A DNA stretch of 14,429 bases, from contig JAGLYR010000121.1 of the NCBI GenBank assembly GCA_023132135.1, forward strand, positions 1 to 14,429, in the 5' to 3' direction. Source of the stretch: Candidatus Eiseniibacteriota bacterium. GTDB taxonomy: Bacteria; Arandabacterota; Arandabacteria; JAGLYR01. The notes below the pieces were generated by a model. The model had not been told where the DNA came from. It saw only the letters and a program-made list of their open reading frames with translations, and made no database searches. Position 1 is the stretch's first letter, and the number at the start of each line of letters is the position of its first letter. This document shows, one piece after another, positions 109 through 14,429 of the stretch. Made by a program: the position numbers and the translations under genes.

Positions 109-528
109 GTGACTGTGATCACGAGACGATTGACGCGCAAGACGCGGGGGCATTCGCAGATGCTCGACATCACGACGGATGTCGCCGGGATCGTGGAGTT
201 GTCCGGGATGGACGCGGGAATGGTGACAGTGTTCATCCCGGGCGCCACTGGTGGGGTGACGACCATCGAGTATGAAAGCGGTCTCGTTTCGGATATGGAA
301 CGTGCCTTCGAGACCTTGGCGCCGGAGAACATCCCCTACGCGCACAACGAACGCTGGGGCGACGGCAATGGCCATTCCCATGTCCGGGCGGCGATGCTGG
401 GCCCCTCGTTGAGCGTTCCCTTTTCCGGTGGCCAGATGATCCTGGGGACCTGGCAGCAGATTGTGGTGGTGGATTTCGACAACCGGCCGAGGCGCCGGGA
501 AATCGTGGTCCAGCTCATGGGAGAGTGA
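109..528 (+). CDS. yjbQ: YjbQ/UPF0047 family protein
   Basis: This encodes a 139-residue protein of the YjbQ (UPF0047) family. Members are small trimeric cytoplasmic proteins, often annotated as secondary thiamine-phosphate synthase because some have weak activity of that kind; the physiological role is unsettled. The family signatures are plain: FIPGATGGVTTIEYE in the first half, then HNERWGDGNGHSHVRA with its conserved His/Asp/Asn cluster, LGPS, and LGTWQQIVVVDFDNRPR near the C-terminus. Length is typical. The GTG start at 109 has an ideal SD (GGGAGG, 95-100, spacing 8). The frame stays open upstream to base 4, but that extension would translate the hairpin at 47-92 and add non-family sequence. 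The stop lies one base before the mtnA start, so the two are probably co-transcribed. Confidence 0.9.
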   Translation: MTVITRRLTRKTRGHSQMLDITTDVAGIVELSGMDAGMVTVFIPGATGGVTTIEYESGLVSDMERAFETLAPENIPYAHNERWGDGNGHSHVRAAMLGPSLSVPFSGGQMILGTWQQIVVVDFDNRPRRREIVVQLMGE

Positions 529-8549: not shown

Positions 8550-10085
8550 ATGATTGACTACATCTTTGCCGCCGTTTTCGCCCTGAGTCTGCTGATCTTC
8601 TCCCACGAGTTGGGCCACTTCATGGCGGCGAAACTCTCCGGGATTCGCGTGCTCAGGTTTTCCATGGGTTTCGGCCCGGTTCTTCTGCGCTGGGGCCGGG
8701 GGGAAACGGAATACGCGCTTTCCGCCATTCCCTTTGGTGGATACGTGAAGATGGCTGGTGAGGGAGATGAGGACGAAACCAAAGGCGAGCCCTGGGAGTT
8801 CGCCTCCAAGCCGGTGTGGAAGCGTCTGATTGTCGTGATCGCCGGTCCGTTCATGAATCTCCTGCTGGCGCTGGTGATCACGATTTCTGTGATCTACATC
8901 GGCGGGATCGAGTATGTGGACACCACCCGGTTGGGCCGCGTGGTGCCGGGATCTCTGGCAGACGGGGCGGGGTTGGTGGTGGGAGACCGGATCCTGGCGG
9001 TGGGGGAGACGGACGTCGGGAACTGGAGCGATCTGACCGATGCCCTGCTCACTGTTCCGGGGGGACCCGTCAATATCTCCATTGAGCGGGAGGGCGAGGT
9101 TGTTCAGACCGTCATGGTGTTCCCGGATTCGGTGACACCAGCGGTGTACCGGCGCATTGGTGTGGAACCCTTTGAACGGCCCGTGATCGGGAAAGCCCGG
9201 CGGCGGTCTCCTGCACGCCGGGCCGGTCTGCGGTCCGGAGATGAGATTGTCTCCATAGCGGGCACGCCCATCACCCAGTGGGGAGAAATAGCGGCGATCA
9301 TTCACGAGAGTCCTGGCGTGGCCATACCCATCGTGTGGTTACGGGATGGCAACCGGATGGAGGCCGAAGTGGTTCCCGAAGAGGGGGATGTCCTGAGCGA
9401 CGCGCCCATCATCGGGACAGTGCGCGGGGGTTCTGCTGCAGACCTGGGGGGACTTGAGCGGGGAGACCGGATTGTCTCCGTGAACGGTGCTCGGGTGGAG
9501 CGGTGGGGTGAGGTCGGCGAGTTTGTTCGCCAGAGTGGCGGTGCTCCTGTTGTGATTGCCTGGGATCGGGACGGACATCCGATGCAGGCGGAGGTTGTTC
9601 TGGAAGAGGGAGACATTCTGAACGACCCCATGAAGGTCACGCGCAAGGGCCTGATCCAGATCAAGGCGTTCTATGCCCGCCGCGACGTGCCGCTTCTGGA
9701 AGCGGCCTCGCTGGGCTTCGATCACACGATGTGGTTGGCCAAGCAGGTTCTGCTGTTCATCAAGGTGCTCTTCACGGGCCAAGCTTCGCGCGACATGGTC
9801 GGAGGCCCCATCCGTATCGGCCAAATGGCGGGTGAGATGGTTATGTGGGGAGTTGCCGAGCTGTTCTTCTTCATTGCCTACCTCTCCGTGGTTCTCTGCC
9901 TTCTGAATTTGCTCCCTGTGCCGGTTCTCGACGGCGGCCACGTGGTCTTCCTCGCCATAGAGGTGGTCATGCGCCGGCCCCTGAGCCTCAGGGTCCGCAC
10001 GGTTTTCCAGCAGGTGGGCTTTGTCCTGCTCCTGCTGGTGATGGCGCTGGTGATGGTGCTGGACCTGGATAAGTTACGCGGATAG
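8550..10085 (+). CDS. rseP: RseP-type site-2 intramembrane metalloprotease with three PDZ-like domains
   Basis: RseP cleaves transmembrane anti-sigma factors and remnant signal peptides within the inner membrane. The 511-residue protein has the HEXXH zinc motif in the first membrane helix (HELGH, 19-23), AIPFGGYVKMAGE (59-71), a membrane helix at about 93-118, a periplasmic PDZ region (126-360), and the C-terminal NLLPVPVLDGGH (453-464) with zinc ligand Asp461, followed by the last membrane helix. Unusually, three PDZ-like modules are visible: about 126-192, 212-284 and 287-359. The last two are 73 residues each and align without gaps at 34 identities. Most homologues have one or two PDZ domains and 350-450 residues. 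ATG 8550 follows AAGGGGAT; upstream extension runs into dxr. The gene lies 31 bases after dxr and converges on the lipoprotein gene with a 10-base gap. Confidence 0.94.
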   Translation: MIDYIFAAVFALSLLIFSHELGHFMAAKLSGIRVLRFSMGFGPVLLRWGRGETEYALSAIPFGGYVKMAGEGDEDETKGEPWEFASKPVWKRLIVVIAGPFMNLLLALVITISVIYIGGIEYVDTTRLGRVVPGSLADGAGLVVGDRILAVGETDVGNWSDLTDALLTVPGGPVNISIEREGEVVQTVMVFPDSVTPAVYRRIGVEPFERPVIGKARRRSPARRAGLRSGDEIVSIAGTPITQWGEIAAIIHESPGVAIPIVWLRDGNRMEAEVVPEEGDVLSDAPIIGTVRGGSAADLGGLERGDRIVSVNGARVERWGEVGEFVRQSGGAPVVIAWDRDGHPMQAEVVLEEGDILNDPMKVTRKGLIQIKAFYARRDVPLLEAASLGFDHTMWLAKQVLLFIKVLFTGQASRDMVGGPIRIGQMAGEMVMWGVAELFFFIAYLSVVLCLLNLLPVPVLDGGHVVFLAIEVVMRRPLSLRVRTVFQQVGFVLLLLVMALVMVLDLDKLRG

Positions 10086-10095
10086 CCTGCGTTTC

Positions 10096-10437
10096 TCACC
10101 GATCCGTCGGTTCCTCAGCTTGGGTTATGGCTTGGGAAATGAGGTCCGACCACTCCACAGCGGTCAGGTGGTTCTTCTCTGCAAAGTCCACCATCTCCTC
10201 TCGCCAGTTGGAGGGCATAGGAGCAGCTTCGAGGGCGCGGAGGAGGGATTCCCGATCGCCTGCAGCATCTTCTTGCGCTCGAAGGAAGACGGTGCAATAC
10301 TCGACGAAGGTTTCTTGGGAGATAGTGCCGGGGGGACGTGCGGGTTCACACCCCGATACGGGGAGACTCAAAGCAAGAACCAGCCCGCCGGCAACGATCA
10401 TGTTCCGACTGTCCGGATGGCACTTGCCGCTTCGCAT
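10096..10437 (-). CDS. Small putative lipoprotein of unknown function
   Basis: This is the only convincing minus-strand gene in the window. It predicts 113 residues with a short basic N-terminus, a hydrophobic stretch (about 14-27) and a lipobox ending VSGC with lipidated Cys30. The mature part is about 84 residues, mostly helix-forming and charged: EYCTVFLRAQEDAAG, then WREEMVDFAEKNHLTAVEWSDLISQAI, with a polar tail. I do not recognise the family. It resembles in size and pattern other short alpha-helical lipoproteins of diderm bacteria. A second ATG at 10401 would give 101 residues but no basic n-region, so 10437 is preferred despite weak SD support for both. It converges on rseP and diverges from omp85, starting 20 bases from the Omp85 ATG. 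The location suggests an envelope role, but this is only inferred. Confidence 0.7.
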   Translation of the reverse strand: MRSGKCHPDSRNMIVAGGLVLALSLPVSGCEPARPPGTISQETFVEYCTVFLRAQEDAAGDRESLLRALEAAPMPSNWREEMVDFAEKNHLTAVEWSDLISQAITQAEEPTDR

Positions 10438-10457
10438 GTAACCATCCAAGCATATCC

Positions 10458-12407
10458 ATGTCACAGGGTCAATCCATATCCGTTCTGTCCGGGTCCGGCC
10501 GCGTGCGGATCGATCCGCGGTTCCTGATCGCGCTCCTTCTGATTGGGGCCGCCCTGTGGGCCGCGCCGGCCGGTGGTGATCAGGATAGGCCGCCCACCAT
10601 CCGCCGGCTGGAGTTCGAAGGGAACAGTCAGGTGGACGACGGTTCTCTGCGGGACGTGATTCGAACCGAGGCATCTTCCTTTCTGCATACCCGCAGATTG
10701 AATCGTCGCCATCTGGACGACGACGCCGTGGAGATCGTCAAGTACTACGAGAGCTGCGGGTTCCTGGAAGCCGAGGTCACTGCGACCCAGGTGGAGGAAG
10801 ACGCGGAAGGCGGATGCGTCGTCACGTTTGTCATTCGGGAAGGCCGTCAGACCATCATTGCCGAAATCCGGGTTTTCGGCAATCTCGTTATCAACACCCG
10901 CCGGATTGCACGGGAACTGGATCTGAAATCGGGCAAGCCGCTTCGCCCCTCGATTATCCCGCAGGACGAATTCCGCATCTATGCGCTCTACGCCGATGAA
11001 GGCTTCTTCCGCTGCGAAGTTTCCCACATGCTCATCGAGAGAGAGGATGGGGTCGTACTCACATATCTGATTGATGAGGGCGAGAGAGTGTACCTGGGTG
11101 GGGTGTCGGTGAGAGGGAACGAGCAAACGCGGCGGCTCATGATTGCGCGGGAGCTGGTTCTGCGCAGCGGAGACGTGTTCCGACGGAAGGATGTTCTGCT
11201 TTCCCAGCAACGGATCTATGAGACGGGTCTCTTGGTGGACGTCGAAATGGAACCGCGCCTCAGGGCGTCGGACAGGGACACGGTGGATCTGGTGATTCGG
11301 GTGCGGGAAGAGCGGAACCGCTGGGTCGGGATGGGGGTGGGCTATGGAACGCGCGATTTGCTCCGGCTGTCCGGTGAATGGGGACACCGGAACCTCTGGG
11401 GAACCGGACGGCAGGTTGGACTGGAAGGTGTCATGGGCACGGGGCTTTTCCCCGCGGAACTCAACAAGTTCCGGGCCCAGGTCCGCTACCTCGAGCCCTG
11501 GCTGGCCGGAACGCGGAACACGGGAATCGTGACTGTTTACGAGCAACACACGTACGAGCATTACGCTGGCGCCGATTTCTGGCTGAGGCGGACCGGTGCA
11601 ATGCTCAGCGCTCGGCGCAAAGTGGGAGAGAGAATCCGGACCTGGCTGAGCTACGGGTACGAGTCAGTCGAGGTTCCTTCGGACCTGGTGGATTTCAGCA
11701 GTCCTGAGGTTCTGCGGGATCTGGGGCTGGAGCGGGATGGAGAGACCTCTATTGTCGAGTTCATTTTCGAAAGGGACATGCGCGACCACTTCTTTGAACC
11801 TTCCCGGGGTTCGATGTCCCGTCTGTCGGTAGGCCTGGCAGGCGGACCGCTAGGGGGAACGAACGAGTTCGGCAAGATCACGGGATTCTGGAATTACTAC
11901 ATACAGTTCTCGCCCCGCTCGGTTCTTTCATTCAAGATCAACGCAGGGTGGGTCAACCGTTGCTGGGGAGACGGTGAGGTTCCCGCGTACGAACGCTTCC
12001 GGACCGGAGGTCCGACTTCCGTGCGGGGGTACCAAGAGGACGAGATTGAGGTGCCGGGGAGGGCGCCCGCCCCGGGGGATTCGACAGGAACGCTTGCCAC
12101 GCCCGGTTCCGCGCTTCTCGTCACCAAAGTGGAAATCACGTTTCCCCTGTTCTGGAAGCTGGGGGGCACGGTGTTCCTGGATGGCGGCAATGTCTGGAGC
12201 GATTTCAAACAGGTCAAGGGTAAGCACTTCCTCTCGGTGAGCGATGAGCCGAATTACTATCGCTACTCAACCGGCGTTGGGCTCTGGATCGCGACGCCGG
12301 TGGGGCCGTTACAGATTGGCTACGGAATCAAGCTGCGCCCGGGGCTTCGCGCCGGAGACATAATGTCGTCGGCCTCGGGATGGGTGATTTTCGGACAGTC
12401 GCTGTAG
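10458..12407 (+). CDS. Omp85-family outer-membrane assembly protein (BamA/TamA type, three POTRA)
   Basis: The product has 649 residues from ATG 10458. It has a signal peptide (basic segment about 15-21, hydrophobic core 22-36, cleavage near APAGG), three POTRA domains at about 47-130, 133-212 and 212-286, and a C-terminal 16-strand-type barrel from about 288. The barrel contains the loop-6 motif VRGY (522-525) and the VFLDGGNVW segment (572-580). BamA normally has five POTRA domains and about 800 residues, whereas TamA has three and about 580. A TamB-like gene follows directly, favouring a TamA-like role, while position after rseP is that of bamA. No SD precedes ATG 10458. GTG 10503 gives a cleaner signal peptide and is a real alternative. 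The last residue is Leu rather than the usual aromatic. Confidence 0.9.
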   Translation: MSQGQSISVLSGSGRVRIDPRFLIALLLIGAALWAAPAGGDQDRPPTIRRLEFEGNSQVDDGSLRDVIRTEASSFLHTRRLNRRHLDDDAVEIVKYYESCGFLEAEVTATQVEEDAEGGCVVTFVIREGRQTIIAEIRVFGNLVINTRRIARELDLKSGKPLRPSIIPQDEFRIYALYADEGFFRCEVSHMLIEREDGVVLTYLIDEGERVYLGGVSVRGNEQTRRLMIARELVLRSGDVFRRKDVLLSQQRIYETGLLVDVEMEPRLRASDRDTVDLVIRVREERNRWVGMGVGYGTRDLLRLSGEWGHRNLWGTGRQVGLEGVMGTGLFPAELNKFRAQVRYLEPWLAGTRNTGIVTVYEQHTYEHYAGADFWLRRTGAMLSARRKVGERIRTWLSYGYESVEVPSDLVDFSSPEVLRDLGLERDGETSIVEFIFERDMRDHFFEPSRGSMSRLSVGLAGGPLGGTNEFGKITGFWNYYIQFSPRSVLSFKINAGWVNRCWGDGEVPAYERFRTGGPTSVRGYQEDEIEVPGRAPAPGDSTGTLATPGSALLVTKVEITFPLFWKLGGTVFLDGGNVWSDFKQVKGKHFLSVSDEPNYYRYSTGVGLWIATPVGPLQIGYGIKLRPGLRAGDIMSSASGWVIFGQSL

Positions 12408-12416
12408 GTGAGTTGG

Positions 12417-14429
12417 ATGGCGGGACGATTCTCAAGACGGTCGAAGATTGCAGGGCTGGTGCTTCTCGGGCTCGTGATGGGAGCCGGGATGGCACTGGCG
12501 TATCTCTCGTTCCGCCCTTCGCCGTGGGTGGCAGAGCGCGTCTCCCGGGCTATCAACAGGGCGTGGGGGAATTCCTGCGGTTTCCGGGTGGAGATTGGGA
12601 CTGTTGTCGGCAGTCCGTTCACTCGGGTATCTCTCACCGGTGTTAGCTTCGAGCACTGGAGTGGCGGGATCCGGGCCTCGGTGGACACGGTTCAGATCGA
12701 TCCCGTTCTCCTAGGTTTGCTGCGCGGGAAGATTGCTCTGCGGTCTCTTATTCTGGTGTCGCCGGACATTCGACTACTGGCAGGTGGCCGGGATGATCTC
12801 CAGCAGGAATCCGCATTCCCCGCCAGCATCGGCCACTTGGAGATTCACCGGGTCATCATTCGGGACGCGCGGGTTGAGGGTGGTCCCCTGGGGCGGGGTG
12901 AGGTGGTGGAGGAGATCGATATCGAGGGCTTTGTTCGGGCGCGTGGTGATCACTTTGCCATCCGGTTGGACAGCGGTTCGGGGATCTGGTCGAGACCCGG
13001 CCTTCGCGTGAATTCACTCACCGGTTGGTTGACCCGGAAGGGACTGGTTCTGCGTCCCAAGCTCACCTTGCAAACGCCGCTGTCGTCTGTTGAGATCAAG
13101 GGAGAGATCCATCTGGATTCCCAGCAGCCCTCCCGGCTGAGAGTCGGGCTCGGGGACCTGTTTCTCGATGAGATTGCGTCCGCCGACCCGCGCGTGCCCC
13201 GGTGGATCTCGGGATGGCTTTCGGGCGCCCTTTACCTCACGGGGTCGCGGGAGGCCTGGGAGGCGCGAGTTTCCCTCCAGGGGCAAATCCCGGAGTGGCC
13301 TCCGGGTAAGGTTCGGGCCCACGTCGCCGGCCGGAGTGATTCCGTGGCGATCCTGGAACTGGCTCTCGAGGCCGAGAACACACGCTTGAGCAGCAACGGC
13401 ATGAGGGTTGCCCTGGAGTCGGGTTGCTTTGAGGGAAATCTGGACGTCCGGGGCCTGGACCTGGACAGGATCCTGAGGGTGGAGGGCGCCGAGACGGATC
13501 TCAATGCCGCGATCTCCTTCTCCGGCACAGGCCTTGGGGGATCTTCCCCGAGTGTCCATCTCGGCGTGGATCTGCAGCCAGGCACCGCACGGGGTCTGGG
13601 GCTGGGCGCGGGTCACATCGCGCTGGAGGCCGGGCCAGGCAGGATCGATGTCCACGAAGCTTGCGCCGTGGGTGATGGTTGGGAAATCACGGGGCATGGA
13701 GTGTGGGATCGGGGCGAGAATCTTCAGGCGGAGTTCGTTCTCGACTGTGCGTCTGTCCGGGAGATTGGCCGTGCTCTTGGCCAGGATCTGGAGGGCAGGG
13801 GCAGTGTCCGTTTCCGGGCTGGGGGAGCACTCGACGACCTGGCCGGGAGCGCGGCCATGGACTTCCGGGATCTGTGCTTTGAGGGAGTTACCGTTGATAC
13901 GCTTCTGGCCGACGTGTCCTTCACGGGAGGGAACGGACCGCTGGGAGCTTCCTGCTTTTTCGAATCACGGGGAATCGCCGCCCGGGGCATGTCGGGACAG
14001 AAGCTGGTAGCCCATTTCTCCATCACGGGCCGCGAGATTGACGAGTTTCATGCCGTGGGACAGGTCGACAGTGTCCTCCTGCAGGTCGAAGGACGAATGA
14101 CCGACCGTGATGGGGTTCAGACGCTGACCTTCACCCGGGCGGAGCTTTCGGGCACCGAGCGACTCTGGAAGAATGGTGATGATGTCCAGATAGTGTTCTC
14201 GGAGGATGGGATGGAGATCCGGCCCTGCCGTTGGCAGTGCACGGGGGGAGTGATCGAAGCTTCAGCACGGATTCGGTCGGATGGCGCCACAGACATCGCA
14301 GTCCACGGGACGCAGATGTCTCTCGGCGCGATCGCGAACCTTGCTGTGCCGGGCCGCGGGCTGGATGGCACGGCCTTTGTGGATGTGTCTGTAACAGGAA
14401 CCCGGGCGGCTCCGAGCGCGCAGGTTTCA
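12417..14429 (+). CDS. TamB/AsmA-like translocation and assembly protein, 3' end outside window
   Basis: An uninterrupted frame of 671 codons runs from ATG 12417 to the last base without a stop, so the gene is truncated by the window edge. AGGTGA (12406-12411) serves as SD and the start is 9 bases after the Omp85 stop. The product begins with basic residues (RFSRRSK) and a membrane anchor at about 11-31. The N-terminal TamB/AsmA pattern follows at about 57-121 (VEIGTVVGSPFTRVSLTGV, then a hydrophobic strand ending SPDIRLL). The remainder is a long series of beta-strand-rich, low-helix repeats of the kind that forms the TamB/AsmA hydrophobic groove. Family members bridge the inner and outer membranes and move phospholipids or assist outer-membrane protein insertion with Omp85 partners. 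The conserved C-terminal DUF490 domain should lie beyond 14429, so TamB versus other AsmA-like proteins is not fully settled. Confidence 0.85.
   Translation, partial: MAGRFSRRSKIAGLVLLGLVMGAGMALAYLSFRPSPWVAERVSRAINRAWGNSCGFRVEIGTVVGSPFTRVSLTGVSFEHWSGGIRASVDTVQIDPVLLGLLRGKIALRSLILVSPDIRLLAGGRDDLQQESAFPASIGHLEIHRVIIRDARVEGGPLGRGEVVEEIDIEGFVRARGDHFAIRLDSGSGIWSRPGLRVNSLTGWLTRKGLVLRPKLTLQTPLSSVEIKGEIHLDSQQPSRLRVGLGDLFLDEIASADPRVPRWISGWLSGALYLTGSREAWEARVSLQGQIPEWPPGKVRAHVAGRSDSVAILELALEAENTRLSSNGMRVALESGCFEGNLDVRGLDLDRILRVEGAETDLNAAISFSGTGLGGSSPSVHLGVDLQPGTARGLGLGAGHIALEAGPGRIDVHEACAVGDGWEITGHGVWDRGENLQAEFVLDCASVREIGRALGQDLEGRGSVRFRAGGALDDLAGSAAMDFRDLCFEGVTVDTLLADVSFTGGNGPLGASCFFESRGIAARGMSGQKLVAHFSITGREIDEFHAVGQVDSVLLQVEGRMTDRDGVQTLTFTRAELSGTERLWKNGDDVQIVFSEDGMEIRPCRWQCTGGVIEASARIRSDGATDIAVHGTQMSLGAIANLAVPGRGLDGTAFVDVSVTGTRAAPSAQVS

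Follow-up and report, generated by a model that had tools for sequence, protein, structure and literature searches.

In RseP, the PDZ tandem is accepted to be a size filter that holds back site-2 cleavage until site-1 cleavage has taken place. The rseP gene in the stretch of DNA analysed here (the window, 14,429 nucleotides) encodes a protein with three PDZ cores, which raises the questions of how the additional core arose, whether it is a complete PDZ domain and what it could mean for the gate. The overall reading, judged fairly probable, is that of an RseP-type S2P in which the PDZ-C core was duplicated once in its lineage, placing an extra, incomplete PDZ-C core in the gate.

An RseP-type site-2 protease with three PDZ cores

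The open reading frame extends from an ATG start at 8550 to a stop codon ending at 10085 (Table 1). Its 511-aa product scores 345.5 bits against the TIGR00054 (RseP) model, above the curated cut-off of 147.55, and Pfam returns Peptidase_M50 (PF02163) at 224 bits over residues 8-496 together with three PDZ_6/PDZ/PDZ_2 stretches. In the AF2 model the PDZ cores are flanked by long helices (residues 89-118 and 382-408) and lie between TM2 and TM3, and the full-length model matches the structures of E. coli RseP (7w6x) and Aquifex AaRseP (9j82) with a VIA Z of 30 over 420 aligned residues; Foldseek likewise matches it to solved RseP. The gene order tsf-pyrH-frr-uppS-cdsA-dxr-rseP-bamA is the usual arrangement (PMC6411480). 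Family assignment, motifs, predicted fold and gene neighbourhood all mark the protein as an ordinary RseP-type site-2 protease. It shares with 7w6x, 9j82 and the Kangiella structure 7w6y the M50 core with HExxH and LDG, the PDZ region between TM2 and TM3, circularly permuted cores and the PCT region, and differs from these two-PDZ proteins in having one extra PDZ core, with no closing motif of its own between cores 2 and 3.

Table 1. Positions of the rseP gene and its motifs, PDZ cores and closing segments in the window.
Feature	Residues	Positions	Strand	Evidence
rseP, 511-aa RIP metalloprotease (M50B / S2P Group I), three PDZ cores		8550..10085	+	TIGR00054, PF02163, AF2 model
Zinc motif HELGH	19-23	8604..8618	+	H19, E20, G22, H23 invariant in 61 homologues
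PDZ core 1 (PDZ-N)	125-196	8922..9137	+	PDZ HMM E 3e-20; pLDDT blocks 84-98
Motif closing PDZ1, IGVEPF	203-208	9156..9173	+	Aligned with E. coli RseP LGIRP (I215, PDZ-N core, PMC7728848)
Duplicated unit A (PDZ core 2, HMM 210-281)	210-284	9177..9401	+	HMM E 7e-25; pLDDT blocks 95-98 over 221-280
Duplicated unit B (PDZ core 3, HMM 285-356)	285-359	9402..9626	+	HMM E 5e-22
Sole PDZ-C closing segment	362-373	9633..9668	+	Motif KGLIQIK 366-372; I371 aligned with E. coli RseP I304
LDG zinc-ligand motif region, VLDGG	459-463	9924..9938	+	L460, D461, G462 invariant in 61 homologues

The boundaries of the cores are those of a purpose-built RseP-PDZ HMM, which finds all three with E-values of 3e-20 or better. 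Pfam, this HMM and the structural models agree on three PDZ cores in one RseP, as had been proposed in an earlier reading made from the sequence only, and the coordinates given there for the PDZ region (8925-9629), the residue numbers and the identity between the last two modules were all correct on recheck. Residues 212-284 and 287-359 align without a gap at 34 identities of 73, with a local score of 185 against a maximum of 48 in 500 shuffles. Units A and B are also the highest-scoring pair of modules within one protein among 130 parsed RseP proteins (score 180; the next reaches 145). Core 1 is closer to core 3 (24/73 identities) than to core 2 (17/75).

The copied unit and the closing segment

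According to the title of a paper by Inaba (2008), cited in PMC10202637, the PDZ domains of RseP are circularly permuted. In the E. coli protein, I215 (motif LGIRP) counts as part of the PDZ-N core and P306 (motif VGIEP) as part of the PDZ-C core (PMC7728848). The motif VGIEP also contains I304, the solved PDZ fragments extend to 218-220 and 309, and each of the two closing motifs lies at the C-terminal end of its own PDZ domain. Motifs of the LGIRP/VGIEP type presumably correspond to the carboxylate loop and second canonical strand of the PDZ fold. Judged by the extent of the repeat, the copied unit is shown to be 75 residues and not a whole PDZ domain, with the segment that would supply this loop and strand left out, so that the protein has three cores and only two such segments. 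At the junction of units A and B no closing motif is present, and VVPEEGDVLSD passes directly into APIIG (EEGDVLSD/APIIG), whereas in the two-PDZ RseP of Eiseniibacteriota VVPEEGD is followed by approximately 10-12 residues and then by a VG-(M/L)-IGIM segment. Only 3 residues, with no G-phi motif, link cores 2 and 3, as against 7-48 residues in 42 other three-PDZ proteins. The argument for a missing segment rests on this linker length and on the match of the junction to the ends of Eiseniibacteriota PDZ-C cores, and not on the count of G-phi motifs in linkers, which is weak evidence, as shuffled sequence yields the motif in 56% of cases.

These features suggest a gate made of PDZ-N plus a pair of PDZ-C cores that would share one closing segment, the pair having come from a single in-frame duplication of the PDZ-C core, with a 75-residue unit that begins at the third canonical strand and ends with the first. 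Unit B, which adjoins residues 362-373 and the membrane-proximal PCT region, would form the complete PDZ-C, and unit A would be an open core serving as a spacer or cap. This assignment of unit B as the completed PDZ-C and unit A as the open spacer or cap is the most likely one, by a modest preference.

The structural models bear on both possible partners of the segment. The full-length AF2 model has a mean pLDDT of 90.4, with residues 285-300 and 353-360 below 50, and matches the PDZ-C crystal structure 7w70 over 209..376 (87 residues aligned, rmsd 1.4). This match fits unit A (approximately 75 residues) plus about 12 residues of the closing segment, although the range gives no more than its two end residues. 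When core 3 is modelled alone with the residues up to 382, the mean pLDDT is 84, with core blocks at 91-98, and residues 284-376 match 7w70 with 87/87 aligned, rmsd 1.5 and Z 14.2; structure prediction thus returns for unit B a complete PDZ fold like that of RseP PDZ-C and bears out its earlier description as a PDZ module. The low confidence at 285-300 in the full-length model could suggest that core 3 does not fold; this was rejected, since both low stretches are explained by an input alignment with approximately 2 of 60 rows over core 3 and the one at 285-300 disappears when core 3 is modelled alone. Both cores fit segment 362-373 in the models and could thus each be completed by it, but within a monomer it can serve only one of them at any moment. 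Both models are biased, the full-length one by alignment depth and the core-3 one by the absence of core 2 as a competitor.

The main alternative, which is tentative, is that unit A takes the closing segment, which would make core 3 an insertion nested within the preceding loop. The match of the full-length model to PDZ-C crystal structures over 209..376 is consistent with this arrangement, as are the branch lengths in the module trees, where unit A has the shorter branch (0.44 versus 0.83-1.12 for unit B) and is the more conserved copy. Core 3 was, however, barely covered by the alignment behind this full-length model, so that the pairing it gives between core 2 and 362-373 may be artefactual; unit B adjoins the segment and, modelled alone, is predicted with good confidence to fold together with it. 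A further scheme, in which cores 2 and 3 compete for the single segment and strand exchange would let the gate alternate between two closed states, is considered improbable.

Origin of the additional core

At the DNA level the two copies share only 60% identity (131/219), with 33 of 73 third positions matching, and this low identity rules out an assembly stutter as the source of the repeat. The same codon is used at 18 of the 34 identical residues, as against 15.1 predicted by codon usage, and the copies agree at 5 of 13 fourfold sites. The synonymous signal between A and B is therefore nearly gone and near chance level, and the duplication, which had been described as recent, does not count as recent in the usual sense.

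The proposal that cores 2 and 3 derive from an in-frame duplication is upheld by the pairing of the modules as sisters, the 75-residue offset and the occurrence of two PDZ domains in relatives. In an 82-module tree A and B are sisters (100/54) placed among the second PDZ domains of two-PDZ proteins, and the pairing recurs in a smaller tree restricted to 32 second modules (94/67). The sisterhood predicted from the sequence is thus recovered in both trees at bootstrap values of 94-100, although trees without it are not rejected by AU tests (p 0.07-0.33; only 81 columns).

Sampling of the phylum-level group to which the protein belongs comprises 8 genomes, with its own family represented by the source genome only. 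In the four class relatives (G001, G003, G004 and G006) RseP has two PDZ domains, with an alignment gap that coincides with the third core; as the G006 protein is cut at a contig end, these relatives are complete or near-complete. In a nearby phylum, that of G346, with strict-threshold matches in 17 of 20 genomes, all 11 complete RseP examined have two PDZ domains. This phylum appears to be Eiseniibacteriota, because the second PDZ of a Candidatus Eisenbacteria protein (L108) is almost identical to the second PDZ of G393 (L174). Over the PDZ-C core, the two-PDZ RseP of Eiseniibacteriota and of class families f2 and f3 are the nearest to the 511-aa protein in sequence, and the Eiseniibacteriota PDZ-C shares with it the ending VVPEEGD; unlike the 511-aa protein, they have a single PDZ-C core and an intact closing segment (VGxIGI-like). 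As the class relatives and Eiseniibacteriota have two PDZ domains, the timing of the duplication would be lineage-specific, and the simplest and most likely reading of the comparisons is a single gain in the lineage of the 511-aa RseP.

It is rather unlikely that the class ancestor had three PDZ cores and that the other families each lost one while this lineage kept the ancestral state. The divergence between A and B (approximately 47% identical) is similar to that from the nearest two-PDZ relatives, and the AU tests allow a duplication before the split. Such a history nevertheless requires losses in families f2 and f3, all of which have intact two-PDZ tandems, and, if the event were older still, losses in Eiseniibacteriota as well, where the tandems are likewise intact; furthermore, the best trees pair A and B first.

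Group I S2Ps are known to carry a variable number of PDZ domains (PMC7728848, PMC10202637), and three-PDZ proteins are not confined to this locus. Module parsing of 130 proteins gives 11 with one PDZ, 75 with two and 44 with three, including the 511-aa RseP; as the set was gathered by similarity to this protein, the counts give no estimate of frequency. Among 386 genomes, approximately 18 have a match spanning the whole three-PDZ protein, with match ranges judged by eye. Named holders include Myxococcota, Bdellovibrionota, Hydrogenedentota, Auribacterota, Lentisphaerota, Peregrinibacteriota and one Pseudomonadota record. With 43 other three-PDZ proteins found and a variable number already in the literature, the possession of three PDZ domains loses the distinguishing character that the sequence-only reading had given it. 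No description of a three-PDZ RseP was found in the literature searched, most subscription papers being beyond reach, and the one match to "three PDZ" concerned three fungal genes.

The RseP proteins of Myxococcota, Bdellovibrionota, Hydrogenedentota, Auribacterota and Lentisphaerota resemble the 511-aa protein in being M50 RseP proteins with three PDZ cores, but they differ in layout, with linkers of 7-48 residues between cores 2 and 3 and with cores 1 and 3 more alike where one pair stands out. They also lie elsewhere on a tree built from PDZ-free columns (42 rows), which places the 511-aa protein among two-PDZ proteins. Constraining every three-PDZ protein to one clade on these columns costs 60 log units, and a common origin with the Myxococcota-type form is rejected (AU p 0.00045). 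The survey shows more than one origin of three-PDZ RseP, with layouts that differ. It is accordingly very unlikely that the 511-aa protein has the same old architecture, inherited or transferred, even though the form exists elsewhere and several three-PDZ proteins align with it end to end, as in the others the similar pair, where one stands out, is cores 1 and 3 (with core 2 divergent in several) and the linker between cores 2 and 3 is longer, with one exception. That exception, a Peregrinibacteriota protein (L153, 3983-5605), likewise has contiguous cores 2 and 3 (linker -1); it is very divergent, its copies are barely alike, and it is at most a parallel case. Three two-PDZ proteins (L076, L129 and L116) have cores that are unusually alike (27-31 identities of 77-79) and may represent other PDZ duplications or conversions.

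With three-module RseP already common in other bacteria and the 511-aa version of separate origin, the protein appears to be a modest, lineage-private variant of a known architecture, which has gained a core without an additional binding-groove segment.

Putative function and neighbouring frames

The second cleavage of anti-sigma factors, as expected of an RseP-type protein, and the clearing of membrane remnants are probably retained. Elsewhere in the source genome (L185 802-3684, G000:C339), an ECF sigma factor, a zf-HC2 anti-sigma factor with a hydrophobic segment and an HtrA-type PDZ protease are encoded in a row, and this cluster could be a candidate regulated-proteolysis cascade providing a substrate and a site-1 protease for RseP. 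The extra core may plausibly affect the size-exclusion gate, and it would probably make the size filter taller, larger or differently placed with no added canonical peptide groove. Comparison of the 511-aa protein with its two-PDZ relatives could therefore separate the contribution of gate size from that of peptide binding.

On the antisense strand, a 192-aa open reading frame (10096-10674, minus strand) lies between rseP and the bamA-like gene and separates these often-neighbouring genes; it has no Pfam match, and an internal Met is followed by a lipobox-like LSLPVSGC. After the Omp85/POTRA gene, a long open frame (12408-14429, plus strand) with a signal-anchor-like start runs off the end of the window and is, by eye, putatively TamB/AsmA-like.
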